The position numbers were made by a program, and so were the translations under genes. Of a stretch of 64,000 nucleotides of DNA, positions 25,551 to 37,503 are shown piece after piece. Numbering within the stretch: the first letter of the stretch is position 1; the number at the start of each line of letters is the position of its first letter. The DNA lies in NCBI GenBank assembly GCA_016214855.1, contig JACRMT010000002.1:62001-126000 (forward strand), in the 5' to 3' direction. This DNA is from Nitrospirota bacterium (GTDB lineage Bacteria > Nitrospirota > Thermodesulfovibrionia > Thermodesulfovibrionales > UBA6898). The notes beneath the pieces were generated by a model, which saw only the letters and a list, made by a program, of their open reading frames with translations, was not told the DNA's origin and ran no database searches.

Positions 25551-25985
25551 TCAAAATTGAACAATCTTCAGCCCAAGGGCCTTTCCACCCGCAGCCATGA
25601 TATGATCGGCAGTCGCAAGACTTTCAGCAGCAATCTCCTTGGCGATCATAAGGTGCAACGCATCGAGAGTTCTGATCGGGATATCCGCAAGAAGTGCCAT
25701 CAAATTAATCGTACCAGATGCCAATCCGGCCGGAAAGGGATGACATATCAAATGTCTCTGGCGTATATCCTCCTGAAACGTTGAGAAAATCTCCATCTCC
25801 ATCTTGAGGGTAATACTTTTCTCTCTCCGGCGGCGTGCAAGCAGGCAGCGCATCTCTACTATGGTCAGATCACTAATGGCAACAGGGCCATGCTGCTGCA
25901 GATATTCCTCCACATCCTCGGAGTGTGCCTCGTTGATATACCATTTTGCTAGTGCACTGGTATCGAAGTAGATCAAGGCCCTCAT
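25551..25985 (-). CDS. vapC: VapC-type PIN-domain toxin
   Basis: A 144-residue PIN-domain ribonuclease. The four acidic active-site positions can be seen: Asp8 in YFDTSALAKWY, Glu in TIVEMRCLL, Asp in TLDALHLMIA and Asp in LATADHIM. Its ATG overlaps the stop of the upstream antitoxin gene (ATGA, 25982-25985), which is typical of toxin-antitoxin operons. VapC toxins usually cleave tRNA or rRNA; the target here cannot be inferred. Confidence 0.9.
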   Translation of the reverse strand: MRALIYFDTSALAKWYINEAHSEDVEEYLQQHGPVAISDLTIVEMRCLLARRRREKSITLKMEMEIFSTFQEDIRQRHLICHPFPAGLASGTINLMALLADIPIRTLDALHLMIAKEIAAESLATADHIMAAGGKALGLKIVQF

Positions 25986-26209
25986 CGAGCGTCTCTGTCC
26001 TCACGGACCAGTTTTTCGCTCCCTTTCTTCATGCGTATCATCTTGTCCCGGAGATCCTTATGAGACGGAACAGGCCGGCCCTTTCCGAGCTGAACTACGC
26101 GGGCGACGGCCTTCCCTCTTTTTGTGATGATAATTTCTCCTTCAGCCTCCAGCACATCATCAAGGTGCGACAATGATTGCCGGGCCTGTCTGATTGTAAG
26201 AGTCTTCAT
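25982..26209 (-). CDS. Phd/YefM-type antitoxin
   Basis: A 75-residue antitoxin. The N-terminal half (MKTLTIRQARQSLSHLDDVL...EGEIIITKRGKAVARV) is the Phd/YefM DNA-binding fold; the C-terminal part is charged and likely wraps the toxin. A GGAGG ribosome site lies 6-8 nt before the ATG. It is translationally coupled to vapC and preceded by a 14-bp perfect inverted repeat that is a natural autoregulatory operator. Confidence 0.88.
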   Translation of the reverse strand: MKTLTIRQARQSLSHLDDVLEAEGEIIITKRGKAVARVVQLGKGRPVPSHKDLRDKMIRMKKGSEKLVREDRDAR

Positions 26210-29192: not shown

Positions 29193-29636
29193 CTATGGTG
29201 TCCTCTTTTGAAAGTCCATCTCATGCCAGTATCCCTTCTCAGCCATGGCATTTATCACGCTTTTTCTGGTGATAAGTCCGACCAGCAGCTTGTCCTGCAC
29301 GACCGGAAGGACGGTAAAACTGTCAGAATACAGCAAAGATGCAAGGTCCTCGACCGATGTCTCAACAGACACGGTAACCGGTTTGCTGCAGACGTTGTGG
29401 TCAGGATGACCGCAGCTCATGATCGATTCTGCGCTGAACTCGTGGATCGTCCTGCCCTCTTTGACGGCACTCAACAGATCGTATTCTGAAACTATGCCAA
29501 CGACTTCATACTCATCGTTAATTACCGGCAGCGCAGGGTAGGGACACATCAGCTTCTGGACCACTTCATCACCCTTCATTTTCATTGGGATGCTTACCCT
29601 TGGATACATAATGTCTCTCGCTGTAATACAGGACAT
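29193..29636 (-). CDS. CBS-domain pair protein
   Basis: 147 residues made almost only of two CBS domains: the first from TARDIMYPRVSIP to EYDLLSAV, the second from AESIMSCGHPDHNVCSKPVTV to TRKSVINAM. A Cys/His-containing insert (SCGHPDHNVC) sits between the halves and could bind metal or act as a redox site. Stand-alone CBS proteins sense adenine nucleotides; the partner is unknown. An AAGGAGG-like ribosome site precedes the ATG. Confidence 0.85.
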   Translation of the reverse strand: MSCITARDIMYPRVSIPMKMKGDEVVQKLMCPYPALPVINDEYEVVGIVSEYDLLSAVKEGRTIHEFSAESIMSCGHPDHNVCSKPVTVSVETSVEDLASLLYSDSFTVLPVVQDKLLVGLITRKSVINAMAEKGYWHEMDFQKRTP

Positions 29637-29863: not shown

Positions 29864-30475
29864 TCATGTCGGCGGTTCGTTATGCTCCAGCAAATTCATG
29901 ATCACCGCGTCAGGTTTCGGCAGTCCGGCCAGCTTCCATACGACCGCAGGATTGAGAAACTGTTCGCTGATACAGTTCTTCTCCTGGTGCAGGTTCTTGC
30001 AGATAGACTTGATGACCGGAAAATAGTTGTACTGCTCATAATAACTTCTAACGAACTTCAGGACATCAAGCTGTTCATATGAAAGATCCCTGATTCCTTC
30101 CCGCTCTGCCAGAGCAAGCGCGATGTTTTCATCCCAGTCATGAAAGTTGGCGAGGTACCCTTCCTCGTCTACATAGGCAGAAGTCCCGCAGCATTCAATG
30201 ATACACTCATTGGATTGCTGCGGCTGGTCGTTCAGGAAATTATGTATTAACTGTCCTATCTGGCTCCCCAGATATACACATTTGATGCCGTCCATACATC
30301 CATCTGCATCTTCTTTCTCAAGATGGGTGGAGAGAAGATGAGACCCCTTCCGGAAATTGACGACAAAAGCATTTTTTTCCTCACTGAAGACAAGGTTCAC
30401 CAGGATGCCGTTCTTTTCTATCTCAGGATACATCTCCATGATCTTATCCTTTAGTGCGACTACGGTGTAGCCCAT
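29864..30475 (-). CDS. Fusion of an unrecognised domain with a cysteine-less DsrC-like domain
   Basis: 203 residues. Residues 1-85 form a domain shared with the protein encoded just upstream (MGYT.ALKDKI.EMYPEIEK). Residues about 98-203 match DsrC/TusE: YVDEEGYLANFHDWDE, then LKFVRSYYEQYNYFPVIKSI and the C-terminal KLAGLPKP. In DsrC two cysteines 11 apart in this arm are the redox-active pair; here the positions are Trp180 and Val191, and the protein runs 12 residues further. Members of the family without both cysteines have been set apart as possible regulators (RspA). Other cysteines (Cys60, Cys66, Cys91, Cys95, Cys96, Cys159, Cys168) lie elsewhere. Its ATG is 2 nt after the upstream stop, with AAGGAG as ribosome site. 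Confidence 0.75.
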   Translation of the reverse strand: MGYTVVALKDKIMEMYPEIEKNGILVNLVFSEEKNAFVVNFRKGSHLLSTHLEKEDADGCMDGIKCVYLGSQIGQLIHNFLNDQPQQSNECIIECCGTSAYVDEEGYLANFHDWDENIALALAEREGIRDLSYEQLDVLKFVRSYYEQYNYFPVIKSICKNLHQEKNCISEQFLNPAVVWKLAGLPKPDAVIMNLLEHNEPPT

Positions 30476-30477
30476 GG

Positions 30478-30822
30478 TTACTCCTTCCCGTTGCAGGAGC
30501 TGATGTATTGTGCAGAAACTGGCGCCTGATCTCGAACGCTTCGGGCAGCCAGCATGATCGATGCCTGCGTCTGATTAGCCTCAACATTGTTCATCCAACA
30601 CCCTATCTGCGAACCGAGATATTGGAACTTGACGCCGCCCATGCATGCATCAGTTTCATCTTTTTCAAGATGGGTGGCAAAAACACTCAATCCCTTCCTG
30701 AAATTCACAAAATAGGTATTCTTTTCTTTGCTAAAAACGAGGCCGATCTGTATGCTGTTCTTTTCTATCTCCGGGTACATCTCCAAGATCTTATCCTTTA
30801 GCGCAGCAATGGTGTAGCCCAT
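30478..30822 (-). CDS. Stand-alone copy of the unrecognised N-terminal domain
   Basis: 114 residues. Residues 1-80 closely parallel the first domain of the downstream DsrC-like fusion: same start MGYT, same EMYPEIEKN, VNFRKG, THLEK and YLGSQIG motifs. This is a tandem duplication, with the DsrC-like part missing and replaced by a short unrelated tail ending in ISSCNGKE. No signal peptide or membrane segment. A GAGGGG ribosome site lies 7 nt before the ATG. Function unknown; I do not recognise the domain. Confidence 0.7.
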   Translation of the reverse strand: MGYTIAALKDKILEMYPEIEKNSIQIGLVFSKEKNTYFVNFRKGLSVFATHLEKDETDACMGGVKFQYLGSQIGCWMNNVEANQTQASIMLAARSVRDQAPVSAQYISSCNGKE

Positions 30823-30832
30823 AGCCCCTCAT

Positions 30833-31106
30833 TTATGTCTTGAAAAAATTCAGCCGTTCCATTTTCTTGAATGCCCAGGCATCTGCAAACAGTTCGTCTT
30901 CCCCGATCTGCGGCAGGCTTGCGCATCTTGCACCCCTGCGGGCTGTTCAGCACAAGTTTCAGCGGCCTTGCCCGATCAGGTTCCGCAATGCCCTGTTTCC
31001 CGCACCGCTCAGCGATATTGTTCATAAAAAGCTTATCTTCAGGCCGAAGACAGTATGCTTCCATAAGATAATTGAACAGCTCTTTATGATCTTCCGGATA
31101 CTTCAT
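30833..31106 (-). pseudogene. Small ORF with an apparent single-base frameshift
   Basis: The frame from ATG 31106 reads as good protein (MKYPEDHKELFNYLMEAYC...RPLKLVLNSPQG) up to a CCCC run at 30933-30936 (GGGG on the coding strand). Downstream it turns into Arg/Pro/Gly-rich text that overruns the next start. If one G is removed, the frame continues as ARCASLPQIGEDELFADAWA and ends with NFFKT at a stop (30833-30835) 10 nt before the next gene, with normal operon spacing. So either the gene is broken or the sequence has a homopolymer error. The restored product would be about 90 residues, with several Cys, and is not recognised. It heads the DsrC-like cluster. Confidence 0.6.
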
Positions 31107-31289: not shown

Positions 31290-34200
31290 ATGGCAAGAGA
31301 AAAGAAAGACCTGATAAAAGAAAGCCGAAAACAGAAACGCAGAAGAGCGAATAAAACACCCGCGGCATTCCCTGAAAGGAGATGCCATGAGCAGAATGAA
31401 GAACTGCGAAGGGCAATGGAAGATCTCGAGGAGTCCCGCAGCAGATATTCTGAACCGGCACGGCGGCGCACAGTAGAAATACAGAGAACTAACGATGAAC
31501 TTATGACCGAAATCACCGCGCGGAGTGAAGCAGAGGAGCGGATAAAGCACCTTGCATCCTTCCCTCAGTTAAACCCAAACCCTGTTATTGAGGTAGATTA
31601 CTTCGGCAACATCATCTTCGCCAATCCGGCAACTGAACGTTTTTTGGAAGGGCTGGGCATGGAAAAAAGGGATGCATCCGTATTCCTCCCAAAGGACCTG
31701 CATCTTATCCTGGCGGATATGGACAAGAACGCCGAATCTTCTGTTTCCCGCGATATCGCTATCGCGGATAAATTTTTCAATGAAACCATACAAATTCTTC
31801 CCCAATTCAAGGTTGTTCGTCTTTATGCCTCGAACATAACCGAACGCAAACGGGCTGAGGAGGCGCTGCACAATAGCGAAGAGTTCTATCGGCAGACCCT
31901 CGAATCGATCCCTGGCATGGTGTTTACGACGAGGGCAGACGGCTATTGCGATTATCAGAGTCAGCAGTGGGTCGATTTCACCGGAGTGCCGATGAAAGAA
32001 CATCTCGGCGACGGCTGGAACAAACTGCTGCATCCCGATGACCGGCCGCATGCCTATGCAGCCTGGTATGCGGCGGTCGAGGGACGTGCTCCTTATGACC
32101 TTGAATACAGGGTGCGGAGGCATGACGGCGAGTACGAATGGTTCAAGGTGCATGGCCGGCCGATCCGCGACTCAGCCGGGCATATCGTCCGCTGGTTCGG
32201 AACCGCGCTGAATATCGATCGACTGCTCAAAACACAGCAGGCGCTTCAGGCAAGCGAAACAAAATACCGCGCCCTGTTCACAAATATGATCAGTGGTTTT
32301 GCGCTCCATAAAATTATTCTGGACGACGCGGGGAGCCCGGTTGACTATATATTCCTCGAAGTGAACAGGGCCTTCGTAAGACTGACCGGCCTGAAGGAAG
32401 AGCAGGTGATCGGCAGGCGCGTAACTGAGGCCCTGCCGGGAATTCAGAATGATCCGGCTGACTGGATCGGCATATACGGCAAGGTTGCACTGAACCGAAA
32501 AGAAGTTCACTTTGAGCAACACAACGAACTCCTCGATACGTGGTTTGCCGTCTCCGCATACAGCCCGATGCAGGGCTTTTTTGTGACGATCTTTGAGGAC
32601 ATCAGCGAGCGCAAGCGCACAGAAGCTGCCTTAACAGAAAGCGAGGAGCGTTTCCGCCGCATCGCCGAAACCAGCGTTGACCTGATCTTCCAGCTGGACC
32701 CTGAGGGCAGGATCACCTACTGTTCCCCTGCGATCAAATCCTTCGGATACGAAGCAGACAAAGTCCTGGAACGATCTTTTGCCGAGTTCATACCGTGCGA
32801 TGAACAGGCTTCGGCTTATAATGCGCTGCAGCGGGTAATTTCCGGTGAAATTTTAAACCTCTTTGAACTCAGAGCGCTGCGACCGGACAACTCGGTTGTC
32901 TTCTGTGAGATAAGTGCAACACCGATCGTGAAAAATGGCGCGATAGTCGGGATCCAGGGAATAGCCCGCGATATCACTGACCGAAAACAGGCAGAAACGG
33001 AACTGCGCGAGGCACACGATGAGCTTGAGGAGCGCGTCAGAGTGCGAACGTCCGAACTGTCCGGGCTTAATGACGACCTCGAGGCCGAGATCTATGAACG
33101 CAGAAAAGCAGAAAACAGGCTTGCGCGCATAAACGCGCTCTATTCGATTCTCTTTCGGGTGAACGAGGCGATAGTCCGCATCCACAATCCCGAAAGGCTG
33201 TTTGAACAGACCTGCCGTATTGTTGTTGACAGCGGCCTCTTCAAGATGGCATGGATCGGATTTGTAGATCCTGATACCGCAAAGGTAAAACCTGTAGCCA
33301 GCGCAGGCGACAGCGGCAAATACCTTGACCGCATCACGATCATCGCCAGTGATGTCCCTGAAGGACAGGGGCCGACCGGCAGGGCAATCATCGAGGGGAA
33401 GACAATGGTATGCCCTGACATTGAGAATGATCCGACCATGCTCCTCTTTCGCGAAGCAGCCCTCAAGGAAGGTTTTCGCTCCTCTGCATCCTTTCCGCTA
33501 CGCGCCGGATCCACCGTTATCGGCGCCTTTAATACCTACGCAGACAGCCCTCGCTTCTTCACTGACGAGGAGATTAAGCTGCTTTCTTCGCTGGTTGAAG
33601 ATATCTCCTTTGCGATCGAGACCATGGCCGGAGAGAAGAAGAGGATAGAGGCAGAGCAGACTGTGCTGGCATCAGCGCATGAGATCGAAGACCTGTACAA
33701 CTATGCGCCCTGCGGGTACCATTCTCTGGACAGGGACGGAAGGATCGTCAGGGTCAATGACACTCAACTTTCCTGGATGGGCTATAAAAGAGAGGATGTC
33801 ATGGGGAAAAAGATATCCGATTTCTGCACCGAAGAGAGCAGGAAGATCTTCAGCATAAAATTCCCTCAATTCCTGAAAACGGGAAAGGCAGCTGATCTTG
33901 AATTTGAATTTGTTCGCAGAGACGGATCCATCCTGCCTGTCAGCATCTCTGCAACGGCTGTCCGCGATAAAGACAACAACTTTGTCATGACTCGTACAAC
34001 GGTGATGGACATCACCGAACGCAAGGCGCGGGAACGGCAGACCGAGGCAGCCAACAATGTGCTCAAACTCTTCGCCGCAACTGCTGCACGTGAAGACTAT
34101 CTTAATGCCCTTGTCAGCCAGCTCAGGATATGGTGCGGATGCAGCGCTGTCGGCATACGGCTTATCGGCGAGGAAGACGATGTGCCCTTTGTAGCCTGTA

Positions 34201-35255
34201 GGGGATTCAGTGAGGGATTTATTAAACAGGAAGGCAGCCTCATACTCGGAAAGGACTCCTGCGCCTGCACCAGGGTGATCAACGGGAAGCCACGCAGGGC
34301 AGAGACAAATTTCATGACCAAAGGCGGTTCTTTTGTCTGCAATGACACGTCCGATCTCTGCTCCAAAAATCTGCGTGACTTTTACCGGCATGCCTGCATC
34401 CGGGAAGGTTTTTCTTCCCTGGCCGTAGTACCAATCCGGTACCGCAGCAGGGTGATAGGTGCGGTCCATCTTGCTGATCCGCAAAATAACGCATTTACCC
34501 CCCCTGTCATTAACTTCATCGAGGCCATAACGCCTCTTGTCGGCGAGGCCCTGCACCGGTTCTCCATTGAGGAAGAGCTGACAACCTCCCGGGAAGAGCT
34601 GCGCGCCCTTTCTGCCCATCTGCAGGAGGCCCGTGAAGAGGAGCGTATTAAAATAGCCAGGGAGATCCATGACGAACTGGGCCAGATCCTTACTGCAGCA
34701 GGGATCGAGTTATCTCTGATAAAGAACCGGTATAAAGACCATGCTCCGATAAAGAAGGCTGCCACATCGGTCATCGGCATGCTTGATAATGCCGTAGCGG
34801 ATATACAGAGGATATGCGAGGAGCTGAGGCCGAGAATACTGGACCATCTCGGTCTGCCGGTAGCCATTAAACAGGAAGCAGCGGGCTTTACAAAGCGCAC
34901 CGGCATACGCTGCTCACTTGATCTTGTCAGTAAAGTTCCCGGCCTGACCGATGAGTCGGCAGTTGCCCTTTTACGCATCGTTCAGGAAGCGCTCACCAAT
35001 GCTGCAAGGCATTCAGGGGCTACGGCGGTCTCTGTCCGTCTCACGGCTGACAAGAAAAATATTACCCTCGAGGTCACTGACAATGGCAAAGGCATCTCCC
35101 GTCAGGAACTCGGAAAGAAGACGTCGCTGGGTCTTATCGGCATGCGGGAACGGGTGCGCGAAATTAACGGTGACGTGACCATACAGGGAACTGCCGGCAA
35201 GGGAACTGTTGTGACTGTCCGGATCCCGTCGAAAGAACGCTCAAGGAAGAGGTGA
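31290..35255 (+). CDS. Multi-PAS/GAF sensor histidine kinase
   Basis: A 1321-residue soluble sensor kinase. N-terminal coiled coil (about 1-80), four PAS domains in series (about 82-185, 195-315, 318-440, 445-570), a coiled linker, a GAF domain (about 615-785), a further PAS (about 790-915), and a second GAF domain with several Cys (CGCSAVGIRL, LGKDSCACTRVINGK; about 925-1095). It ends in HisKA_3 (EREEERIKIAREIHDELGQI type, phospho-acceptor His in EIHDE) and HATPase (NAARHSGA, VTDNGKGIS). No membrane segment, so cytoplasmic ligands are expected. The stop overlaps the response regulator start by 4 nt, so the pair is cognate. Confidence 0.93.
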   Translation: MAREKKDLIKESRKQKRRRANKTPAAFPERRCHEQNEELRRAMEDLEESRSRYSEPARRRTVEIQRTNDELMTEITARSEAEERIKHLASFPQLNPNPVIEVDYFGNIIFANPATERFLEGLGMEKRDASVFLPKDLHLILADMDKNAESSVSRDIAIADKFFNETIQILPQFKVVRLYASNITERKRAEEALHNSEEFYRQTLESIPGMVFTTRADGYCDYQSQQWVDFTGVPMKEHLGDGWNKLLHPDDRPHAYAAWYAAVEGRAPYDLEYRVRRHDGEYEWFKVHGRPIRDSAGHIVRWFGTALNIDRLLKTQQALQASETKYRALFTNMISGFALHKIILDDAGSPVDYIFLEVNRAFVRLTGLKEEQVIGRRVTEALPGIQNDPADWIGIYGKVALNRKEVHFEQHNELLDTWFAVSAYSPMQGFFVTIFEDISERKRTEAALTESEERFRRIAETSVDLIFQLDPEGRITYCSPAIKSFGYEADKVLERSFAEFIPCDEQASAYNALQRVISGEILNLFELRALRPDNSVVFCEISATPIVKNGAIVGIQGIARDITDRKQAETELREAHDELEERVRVRTSELSGLNDDLEAEIYERRKAENRLARINALYSILFRVNEAIVRIHNPERLFEQTCRIVVDSGLFKMAWIGFVDPDTAKVKPVASAGDSGKYLDRITIIASDVPEGQGPTGRAIIEGKTMVCPDIENDPTMLLFREAALKEGFRSSASFPLRAGSTVIGAFNTYADSPRFFTDEEIKLLSSLVEDISFAIETMAGEKKRIEAEQTVLASAHEIEDLYNYAPCGYHSLDRDGRIVRVNDTQLSWMGYKREDVMGKKISDFCTEESRKIFSIKFPQFLKTGKAADLEFEFVRRDGSILPVSISATAVRDKDNNFVMTRTTVMDITERKARERQTEAANNVLKLFAATAAREDYLNALVSQLRIWCGCSAVGIRLIGEEDDVPFVACRGFSEGFIKQEGSLILGKDSCACTRVINGKPRRAETNFMTKGGSFVCNDTSDLCSKNLRDFYRHACIREGFSSLAVVPIRYRSRVIGAVHLADPQNNAFTPPVINFIEAITPLVGEALHRFSIEEELTTSREELRALSAHLQEAREEERIKIAREIHDELGQILTAAGIELSLIKNRYKDHAPIKKAATSVIGMLDNAVADIQRICEELRPRILDHLGLPVAIKQEAAGFTKRTGIRCSLDLVSKVPGLTDESAVALLRIVQEALTNAARHSGATAVSVRLTADKKNITLEVTDNGKGISRQELGKKTSLGLIGMRERVREINGDVTIQGTAGKGTVVTVRIPSKERSRKR

Positions 35256-35890
35256 CCATGTATAAGATCCTTATTGCAGACGACCATCCGATTGTTCGAA
35301 AGGGCCTCAGGCAGATCCTTGAAGAAGGAGGCATTGTCCGGAGCATAGAAGAGGCCGAAAACGGCAGAGAGGCCATCGAAAAGGTCAGGGATGGCAGTTT
35401 TGATGTAGTCATGCTCGACATCTCAATGCCGGAGATGGGCGGACTTGAGGCACTTGAGCAGATCAAGAAACTGAGGCCGTCCCTTCCGGTCCTGATCCTG
35501 AGCATCTACGCGGAAGAGGAGTATGCAGTGCGCGCCCTGAGATCTGGGGCATCAGGCTATATGACCAAGAAGAGCGCTCCTGACGAACTGATAACAGCCA
35601 TAAAGAAGATCGCCCACGGTGCACGGTACATCAGTCCGTCCCTTGCTGACTTTCTCGCCTCTCACCTGACCGAAGAGCAGAACAAGCCTCCCCATGAAAC
35701 CCTGTCGAACCGGGAGTTCCAGGTAATGCGCATGATCGCCACGGGCAGATCCCTGAAAGAGATCGCCTTTGACATGTCCCTCAGCCCCAAGACGATCAGC
35801 ACCTTCCGGACACGTATCCTTCAGAAGCTGCAGTTACAGAGCAACGCTGACCTGATCCAGTATGCCATAAAGAATAAGCTTGTAGATTAA
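35252..35890 (+). CDS. NarL/FixJ-type response regulator
   Basis: 212 residues. The receiver domain has the acidic pair in LIADDHPIVRKG, the phospho-acceptor Asp in VMLDISMPEMGG, Ser in LILSIYA and Lys in MTKKSAP. The LuxR-type HTH (about 148-210) reads LSNREFQVMRMIATGRSLKE and STFRTRILQKL. It is translationally coupled to the HisKA_3 kinase and expected to act as its transcriptional output. Its targets are not visible, though the sigma factor gene 206 nt downstream could be one. Confidence 0.95.
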   Translation: MTMYKILIADDHPIVRKGLRQILEEGGIVRSIEEAENGREAIEKVRDGSFDVVMLDISMPEMGGLEALEQIKKLRPSLPVLILSIYAEEEYAVRALRSGASGYMTKKSAPDELITAIKKIAHGARYISPSLADFLASHLTEEQNKPPHETLSNREFQVMRMIATGRSLKEIAFDMSLSPKTISTFRTRILQKLQLQSNADLIQYAIKNKLVD

Positions 35891-36096: not shown

Positions 36097-37503
36097 GTGA
36101 GCGAATTTGTAACTACCGAAATAGAATATGCAGGCTGCGATATCCTGGAATATGCAGAACCTCTGGCAGAAGAACCGGTCTCAATGTTTATGGAGGATGA
36201 AGAGACCTCTGCGGAAGACCATTGTCCGGAAGACGGCGCTGATGACGATCATGGGCAATGCGACCCGCTCACGATGTATCTGAGCGAAATAGGTTCCATT
36301 CCTCTCCTGAAGAGAAGCGAGGAAACAGAAGTTGCAAAACGAATTGAAGACAACAGGGAAAGGCTGATGAGAGCACTTTTTTCGCTGCCGCTTGCTGTGG
36401 AAAAAATGCTGCAGGAAGCAGACCGGGTGCGGCTCAAAGAGGCGCATCTGAACGAGATCATACATCTCTCGGCCGATCCTGATCAGATAAAGGAAGATGA
36501 GAGAAAGACTATTTTTGAAGCCATGCGGCAGATAGGCCGCCTGCACAGGATGAAAATTCCGTCTCTGTATCGTGAAAAACTGCCATCCAGGGTCATAGCA
36601 CTCGGATTAAAATTTGATTTTGTCGAAAAGCTGTTTGGCGAGGTCAATGCAGAAGTACGGGATATGGAAGCCCGCCTGGCAGACATGAACACCAGAAAAG
36701 CAAATGCTGAAAGGAAGACATTTGAGGAGAGGACCTGCAGCGCTCTGAGCACAATGCAGGCAGTTCTCCGGACCTGCGCTCATGCCCGCGAAGAGATCAA
36801 TGAGGCAAAAAACATACTCATCGAAGGAAACCTGAGGCTTGTTGTCAGTACAGCCAGAAGATATGCCGTCATGGGCAAGATGAGCATGCTCGATCTTATT
36901 CAGGAGGGGAATATCGGTCTCATGAGATCGGCAGAACTGTTCGACTACCGGAGGGGTTTCAAATTCAGCACCTACGCCACCTGCTGGATCAAGCAGGCGA
37001 TCACCCGTGCACTATCAAAACACTCAAGGATGATACGCTTCCCGGTGCATACTGCAGACGAGTTGACCAGGATCATCCGGGCCTCAAAGCAGTTGGCAAA
37101 TGAAATGGCTGAAGAACCCTCCCATGAGAGCATAGCAGAACGGGTAAAGATGCCCGAGCATAAGGTGAGGAGCTTGCTTGAGATGTCGCGGGACCCGCTC
37201 TCCCTTCATCATCAGGTCGGCGATGAAGAATCCGAGATGATAGAGCTGATTGAGGACAGGTCAATGCCGTCTCCTCTTGAATCTGTCATTCATACCGATC
37301 TCAGGGAAAAGGTGCGACATGCGATCTCAATACTCGACCCGAAGGAGGAAATGATCATCCGCGGACGGTTCAGCATAGACAAGGAAGAACGGACGCTCGA
37401 AATGCTGGCCAATGAATTCGGTCTGACCAGAGAACGGATTAGACAGATAGAGACGATAGCCATAAAGAAACTGAAGAGCCATTTTGCAGCGGCATCTGTT
37501 TAG
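36097..37503 (+). CDS. RpoD-family (group 2-like) sigma factor
   Basis: A 468-residue sigma-70 family protein with GTG start and an AGGAGG ribosome site. Region 1.2 is DPLTMYLSEIGSIPLLKRSE. A charged non-conserved segment (about 110-235) is followed by region 2 with LRLVVSTARRY, DLIQEGNIGLMR and FSTYATCWIKQAITRAL, region 3, and the region 4 HTH LANEFGLTRERIRQIE. Region 1.1 is replaced by a short acidic N-terminus, and the protein is shorter than typical housekeeping sigma factors, so an alternative sigma factor is more likely than the primary one. The 206-nt gap upstream has no convincing promoter that I can see. Confidence 0.85.
   Translation: MSEFVTTEIEYAGCDILEYAEPLAEEPVSMFMEDEETSAEDHCPEDGADDDHGQCDPLTMYLSEIGSIPLLKRSEETEVAKRIEDNRERLMRALFSLPLAVEKMLQEADRVRLKEAHLNEIIHLSADPDQIKEDERKTIFEAMRQIGRLHRMKIPSLYREKLPSRVIALGLKFDFVEKLFGEVNAEVRDMEARLADMNTRKANAERKTFEERTCSALSTMQAVLRTCAHAREEINEAKNILIEGNLRLVVSTARRYAVMGKMSMLDLIQEGNIGLMRSAELFDYRRGFKFSTYATCWIKQAITRALSKHSRMIRFPVHTADELTRIIRASKQLANEMAEEPSHESIAERVKMPEHKVRSLLEMSRDPLSLHHQVGDEESEMIELIEDRSMPSPLESVIHTDLREKVRHAISILDPKEEMIIRGRFSIDKEERTLEMLANEFGLTRERIRQIETIAIKKLKSHFAAASV

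Follow-up and report, generated by a model that had tools for sequence, protein, structure and literature searches.

A DsrC-fold protein with another cysteine pair, joined to an undescribed two-cysteine domain: a candidate thiol-redox stress module in Nitrospirota

Dissimilatory sulfur metabolism has DsrC as its hub, a protein whose chemistry depends on two cysteines in its arm. What, then, might be the function of a protein that keeps the DsrC fold and has neither of them? The question is raised by the window, the 64,000-nucleotide stretch of a Nitrospirota genome analyzed here, in which three ORFs of 102, 114 and 203 amino acids overlap or nearly touch on the minus strand (29864-31106; Table 1). 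The 203-residue product carries a DsrC-like domain, termed DsrCp below, behind a domain that we call DOM1. An earlier note on this DNA took it for a cysteine-less DsrC relative with a sensing or regulatory role.

Table 1. Features at and around the DOM1-DsrCp locus, in window coordinates.
Feature	Position	Strand	Basis or remark
DOM1-DsrCp fusion protein, 203 aa	29864..30475	-	ORF; Pfam DsrC aa 97-190; model m50eef29c7026, pLDDT 78
DOM1 domain of fusion, aa 1-84	30224..30475	-	115-member alignment A2; model m7086bd7e3ab6
Fusion DOM1 cysteine codons	Cys60 30296-30298; Cys66 30278-30280	-	
DsrCp domain of fusion, aa 91-203	29867..30205	-	alignments and tree
DsrCp codons	Cys159 29999-30001; Cys168 29972-29974; Trp180 29936-29938; Val191 29903-29905	-	
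Stand-alone DOM1 paralogue, 114 aa	30478..30822	-	ORF and sequence comparison
Third (leading) ORF, 102 aa	30798-31106	-	ORF call
Decayed ORF3, 5' in-frame part, 61 codons	30924..31106	-	compared with 143-aa G002 orthologue (L055:9103-9534)
Decayed ORF3, 3' part, other frame (SLPQIGEDELFADAWAFKKMERLNFFKT*)	30833..30919	-	blastn 82% to G002 locus over 143 bp
CBS-domain protein	29193..29636	-	downstream, same strand, 227 bp gap
Divergent PAS/GAF sensor histidine kinase (HisKA_3), Cys-rich GAF	31290..35255	+	genus-conserved neighbor
LuxR/NarL-type response regulator	35252..35890	+	overlaps kinase stop
Sigma-70 family factor, regions 1.2-4	36097..37503	+	neighbor kept in G001, G002, G006, G057

The C-terminal domain of the fusion protein belongs to the DsrC superfamily. 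It matches Pfam PF04358 at 67.2 bits, against a gathering cut-off of 24.9 (E 2.1e-18), as well as TIGR03342 (E 1.6e-17), and it matches DsrC chains in the PDB by sequence (E 1e-12). Similarly, the predicted fold of this half, taken from a model of the fusion built with 48 relatives, found DsrC chains in Foldseek (3or2_C and 1yx3; best E 7.5e-5). The division into an unrecognized domain and a DsrC domain that the earlier note had drawn is thus borne out, and the DsrC similarity persists in both profile and fold searches. By definition, DsrC has two redox-active arm cysteines, one penultimate and one 11 residues earlier (PMC3397948). When aligned with 21 canonical DsrC proteins, all 21 of which have cysteine at both positions, the window protein has W180 and V191 there, with 12 residues following position 191, as the earlier note had it; it is not a DsrC in the strict, two-cysteine sense.

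The comparison took in 53 DsrCp paralogues and, from related genomes, 21 canonical DsrC and 3 TusE-like proteins. All 53 paralogues have W180 in place of the first arm cysteine and lack the second. The arm motif is retained as AWKxAGLPKP, which, with the profile and fold matches, upholds the claim that the DsrC fold and the KLAGLPKP arm were kept. Cys159 and Cys168 (C-x8-C) are also present in 53 of 53, where every canonical DsrC protein has Val and Tyr instead; of the two, only Cys168 is a free test, since membership in the set was defined by W180 and C159. In an alignment of 48 sequences picked by homology (A4), Cys159, Cys168 and W180 are all invariant. The label "cysteine-less" was thus mistaken, also because DOM1 has its own Cys60 and Cys66, and the argument for sensing that was built on lost redox residues is therefore unsupported: the canonical arm pair is indeed gone, but another invariant pair is present. 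In the model of the fusion, the loop that carries Cys159 and Cys168 has a pLDDT of about 57-64, and no structure brings the cysteines within disulfide distance.

DsrCp forms one clade apart from DsrC and TusE (support 99/97, midpoint-rooted tree). With DsrC (PF04358/TIGR03342) it shares the fold, by profile and Foldseek, the conserved W114 and the GLPKP arm; it differs in having neither arm cysteine (W180; V191 or another residue), in the new C-x8-C, in a deletion in the pre-arm loop and a longer arm tail, in its fusion to or pairing with DOM1 and in its gene neighborhood. TusE (PRK11508) is of the same superfamily, and TusE-like proteins occur in the same order (L234, L235 and L237), but TusE keeps the terminal cysteine that DsrCp lacks (position 191 is V in the window). 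A DsrC-family protein is encoded by 60 of 61 related genomes and DsrCp by about 39 of the 61, mostly alongside canonical DsrC. Metagenome surveys may count many DsrCp genes as "dsrC" although their products lack the cysteines for DsrC chemistry. Two further observations concern individual family members: one genome with six DsrC-family genes (G057) has two tandem DsrC-fold paralogues with an AWKxAGLPQP arm and neither the arm cysteines nor the C-x8-C (L249:5866-6634 (-)), and a DsrCp gene with an internal TAG is apparently broken (G048:C49:25286-25555).

DOM1 is, as judged from sequence searches, an undescribed family without a curated relative. A scan of 115 members found no consistent Pfam or NCBIfam family, only scattered matches (best E about 1e-3), and a profile search of the PDB gave scattered weak matches and no related family, in agreement with the earlier note, which had not recognized the domain. 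The family is present in 35 of 61 relatives and in 99 of 396 Nitrospirota genomes; in a second phylum, that of a MAG labelled Deltaproteobacteria, 67 of 345 genomes have it. Among 115 non-redundant members, down to 28% identity, Cys60 occurs in all 115 and Cys66 in 110 (C-x5-C). The gene just upstream of the fusion encodes the same domain alone, as had been claimed (61-62% identity to the fusion's first domain, with a diverged tail at residues 85-114); it and its G002 orthologue are among the Cys66 exceptions, the window's copy keeping Cys60 and having Phe at position 66. In addition, 15 divergent DOM1 proteins have a second pair, C9/C22, with both residues together in 15 of 15.

The predicted DOM1 fold is alpha-beta-beta-beta-alpha-alpha (pLDDT 84), and its Foldseek search returned no match with E below 0.1. 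We considered an HPF-, dsRBD- or SRP-like fold. The ribosome hibernation factors HPF/YfiA have a similar alpha-beta-beta-beta-alpha arrangement (VIA Z 4-5.2, rmsd 3.3-3.5 over 77 residues), but these Z scores are no higher than those of unrelated entries, and DOM1 differs in its conserved cysteine pair, its acidity and the lack of any sequence relation. As the Foldseek and VIA matches are at background level, we make no fold claim. An RNA-binding reading was dropped because DOM1 is acidic (the two protein families, DsrCp included, have median pI values of 5.4 and 5.1). One DOM1 gene (G130:C1:1104348-1104592) is apparently broken, interrupted either by in-frame stops or by a frameshift.

The two domains belong together well beyond the window. 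We found that 31 of the 61 related genomes have both, 4 DOM1 alone, 8 DsrCp alone and 18 neither (Fisher p 7e-6), and that DsrCp lies near or is fused to DOM1 at 24 of 74 DOM1 loci. Many genomes carry the two domains again, either fused or encoded side by side; the pairing is conserved and not due to chance. In the second phylum, DOM1, KORab and DsrCp occur together at L186 and L195, and DsrCp adjoins DOM1 at L189 and L194. DOM1-DsrCp fusions are present in two genera of different families, that of the window and g19; in the latter, probably Thermodesulfovibrio, the fusion lies next to SOD and KORab. The maximum-likelihood tree needs two changes to account for them, but the AU test leaves one origin unrejected (p 0.187), and we therefore do not claim two independent origins. 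In G023, DsrCp is instead fused to a thiol peroxidase (PRK00522, 196 bits) in one 285-aa ORF (L253:5399-6256 (+)). A literature search found no description of a DOM1/DsrCp module.

What the genes around DOM1 encode was assessed for 74 distinct DOM1 sequences of Nitrospirota whose surroundings were available, two loci labelled Deltaproteobacteria included; neighbors were named by scanning representative proteins against Pfam and NCBIfam. Rubrerythrin genes lie within 5 kb of DOM1 at 28 of the 74 loci, where about 1.5 would be expected from their gene density of 2.1 per Mb; the p-value of about 4e-28 is nominal, because the genomes are related and neighborhood counts are uncorrected for kinship. 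SOD genes are present at 11 loci (rubrerythrin or SOD at 35), subunits of 2-oxoacid:ferredoxin oxidoreductase (KOR) at 20, a nitroreductase of one family at 15 and a Thioredox_DsbH/DUF255 protein at 13. The usual order is nitroreductase, SOD, rubrerythrins, DOM1, DsrCp, CBM48, DUF255, rubrerythrin, KORab, and the families identified comprise rubrerythrin, Fe/Mn SOD, nitroreductase, Thioredox_DsbH, POR, Redoxin, DJ-1 and WrbA. SOD directly precedes DsrCp at L241, L257 and L259, with a spacing of -1 to 0 bp. Only 1 of 58 rubrerythrins adjoining DOM1 has the CxxC rubredoxin motif. About half of the DOM1 loci have no stress neighbors, and none of the second-phylum DOM1 loci that were read showed the rubrerythrin/SOD context. 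Beside the window's own cluster there is no SOD or rubrerythrin gene; an SOD gene lies on another contig of this genome.

Two further protein groups were noted at these loci. DOM1/DsrCp/SOD/rubrerythrin clusters repeatedly include a gene for a radical SAM protein of about 380 aa (L245:2311-3450, L241:6664-7815, L129:8372-9514 and similar). A 96-aa rubrerythrin/EncFtn-like protein is encoded 3' of the fusion in G006 (L067:6086-6376 (-)) and by the first gene of the cluster at L035 (L035:5816-6106 (+)).

Our preferred reading, held tentatively and at somewhat less than even probability, is that the fusion represents one version of a conserved thiol-redox module of two components that serves the oxygen and peroxide stress response of anaerobic sulfur-metabolizing bacteria. 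We favor this role because the cysteine pairs, the peroxidase and SOD neighbors, the rubredoxin-less rubrerythrins and the thiol peroxidase fusion agree. From gene context and conservation we infer redox activity, its partners, the direction of electron flow and the same role in the window's genome. DOM1, with its C-x5-C, and DsrCp, with its C-x8-C in the pre-arm loop, would work jointly, as adjacent genes or in one chain, as a carrier or switch whose likeliest action would be reversible thiol-disulfide (or persulfide) chemistry. They might take electrons from a cellular reductant, as 2-oxoacid:ferredoxin oxidoreductase and ferredoxin are recurrent neighbors, and pass them to detoxifying enzymes without a donor of their own, namely the rubredoxin-less rubrerythrins and the thiol peroxidase; alternatively, they may become oxidized as a sensor of oxygen or peroxide stress. 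The kinase, response regulator and sigma factor next to which the module has settled in the window's genus may control it or be under its control.

The most specific form of this proposal is a good deal more doubtful: that DOM1 and DsrCp are an undescribed thiol-disulfide electron relay, a substitute for thioredoxin or rubredoxin on the DsrC fold, through which electrons of 2-oxoacid:ferredoxin oxidoreductase would reach thiol peroxidase and the rubredoxin-less rubrerythrins. If so, sulfur-metabolizing anaerobes would have taken over a sulfur-carrier protein for the removal of peroxide. More generally, if the stress role is true, a large sister clade of DsrC, with another cysteine pair and in oxygen-defense clusters, would be a clear example of a sulfur carrier put to use against redox stress. 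DOM1 comes into view as an undescribed two-cysteine family that about one in four Nitrospirota genomes encodes, with rubrerythrin, thiol peroxidase and SOD as candidate partners.

The strongest competitor to a thiol-redox stress module, unlikely as a whole yet ahead of the other alternatives, is a regulator. DNA binding is known for the DsrC family, and the name RspA has reportedly been proposed for DsrC-class proteins that lack the conserved arm cysteines and have a regulatory role. This class appears to be the nearest published concept to DsrCp, which fits a DsrC fold without arm cysteines, the likeness being one of definition. DsrCp would then be an HTH-like protein acting on the transcription of stress or sulfur genes. 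DOM1 would be its partner or its sensor domain, the cysteine pairs would form a redox switch, and its circuit would comprise the kinase, response regulator and sigma factor nearby. The loss of the arm cysteines across the whole DsrCp clade is consistent with this, as is the gene order on the other strand. The divergent neighbor is indeed a PAS/GAF kinase with a Cys-rich GAF domain, and a kinase and a LuxR-type regulator adjoin DOM1 in 7 genomes, the kinase being assigned in most relatives by alignment with that of the window; a sigma-70 factor is present too in 5 of the 7 (G000, the window's genome, G001, G002, G006 and G057, as opposed to G036 and G048). The Cys-rich GAF segment is common to G000, G002 and G006 and partial in G057 and G036. 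Conservation of the order near the kinase, which the note had proposed checking, thus holds within part of the taxonomic order. Against a regulator, DOM1 and DsrCp are both acidic, the only HTH signal is a sub-threshold LexA-like match (E 0.087), the partners that recur across the phylum are enzymes, and the thiol peroxidase fusion speaks for an enzymatic partner. The phylum-wide detoxification context (rubrerythrin, SOD, thiol peroxidase, nitroreductase) suits a thiol-redox partner no less well than a regulator, and, together with the replacement cysteine pair, it tells against deducing a sensing role from lost redox residues. Because the window's genome has no detoxification genes next to the cluster, the regulatory reading stays live there. 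Should DsrCp turn out to be RspA, what is new would be its invariant C-x8-C pair, its pairing with DOM1 and its place in stress clusters.

It is less probable still that the cysteines form a shared Zn or Fe-S site, with Cys60, Cys66, Cys159 and Cys168 and perhaps His163 as ligands, the product being a stress-labile sensor or an iron carrier for ferritin-like enzymes. The four cysteines are invariant or nearly so across DOM1 and DsrCp, the four-cysteine DOM1 subclass gained C9 and C22 together, and the DsrCp pair reads C159-x3-H-x4-C168 in 41 of 53 proteins. Position 163 is, however, Asn, Gly or Asp in the other 12, some genomes have DOM1 or DsrCp alone, and the window's second DOM1 lacks Cys66. 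Least probable of all is an oxygen-stress-induced accessory subunit of the sulfite reductase DsrAB or of the Dsr pathway, a DsrC competitor or inhibitor that would dock through the KLAGLPKP arm and take up no sulfur: the arm motif is retained and the window's genome encodes DsrAB and, on contig C7, a canonical two-cysteine DsrC, but most loci have no adjacent dsr genes, the module sits among detoxification genes, and the first arm cysteine is Trp in all DsrCp members.

The leading ORF, which the note had counted as a small cysteine-containing member of the set, is, by comparison with its 143-aa orthologue in a congener, a gene remnant in this genome: it has lost about 50 residues from its middle, and its last 28 codons are out of frame with the first part. 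The 102-aa ORF is therefore not to be taken as a functional cysteine-containing partner here. A sequencing error could account for the frameshift, but not by itself for the missing stretch. Intact homologues occur at L047, L062, L135 and L245, at the last of these between SOD and rubrerythrin. A promoter and terminator scan gave no signal above shuffles, and the CBS-domain protein downstream probably lies outside the module.

Elsewhere in the window's genome, contig C23 carries a third DOM1 copy (74% identity). It lies near genes for ferredoxin and for COX1/cytochrome c proteins that resemble NorB/NorC (L053, G000:C23:71000-90900), and these NO-reductase-like genes suggest a nitrosative-stress link for some DOM1 copies. 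Within the window, a 75-aa protein encoded at 25982-26209 (-) resembles, by eye, a Phd/YefM-type antitoxin.
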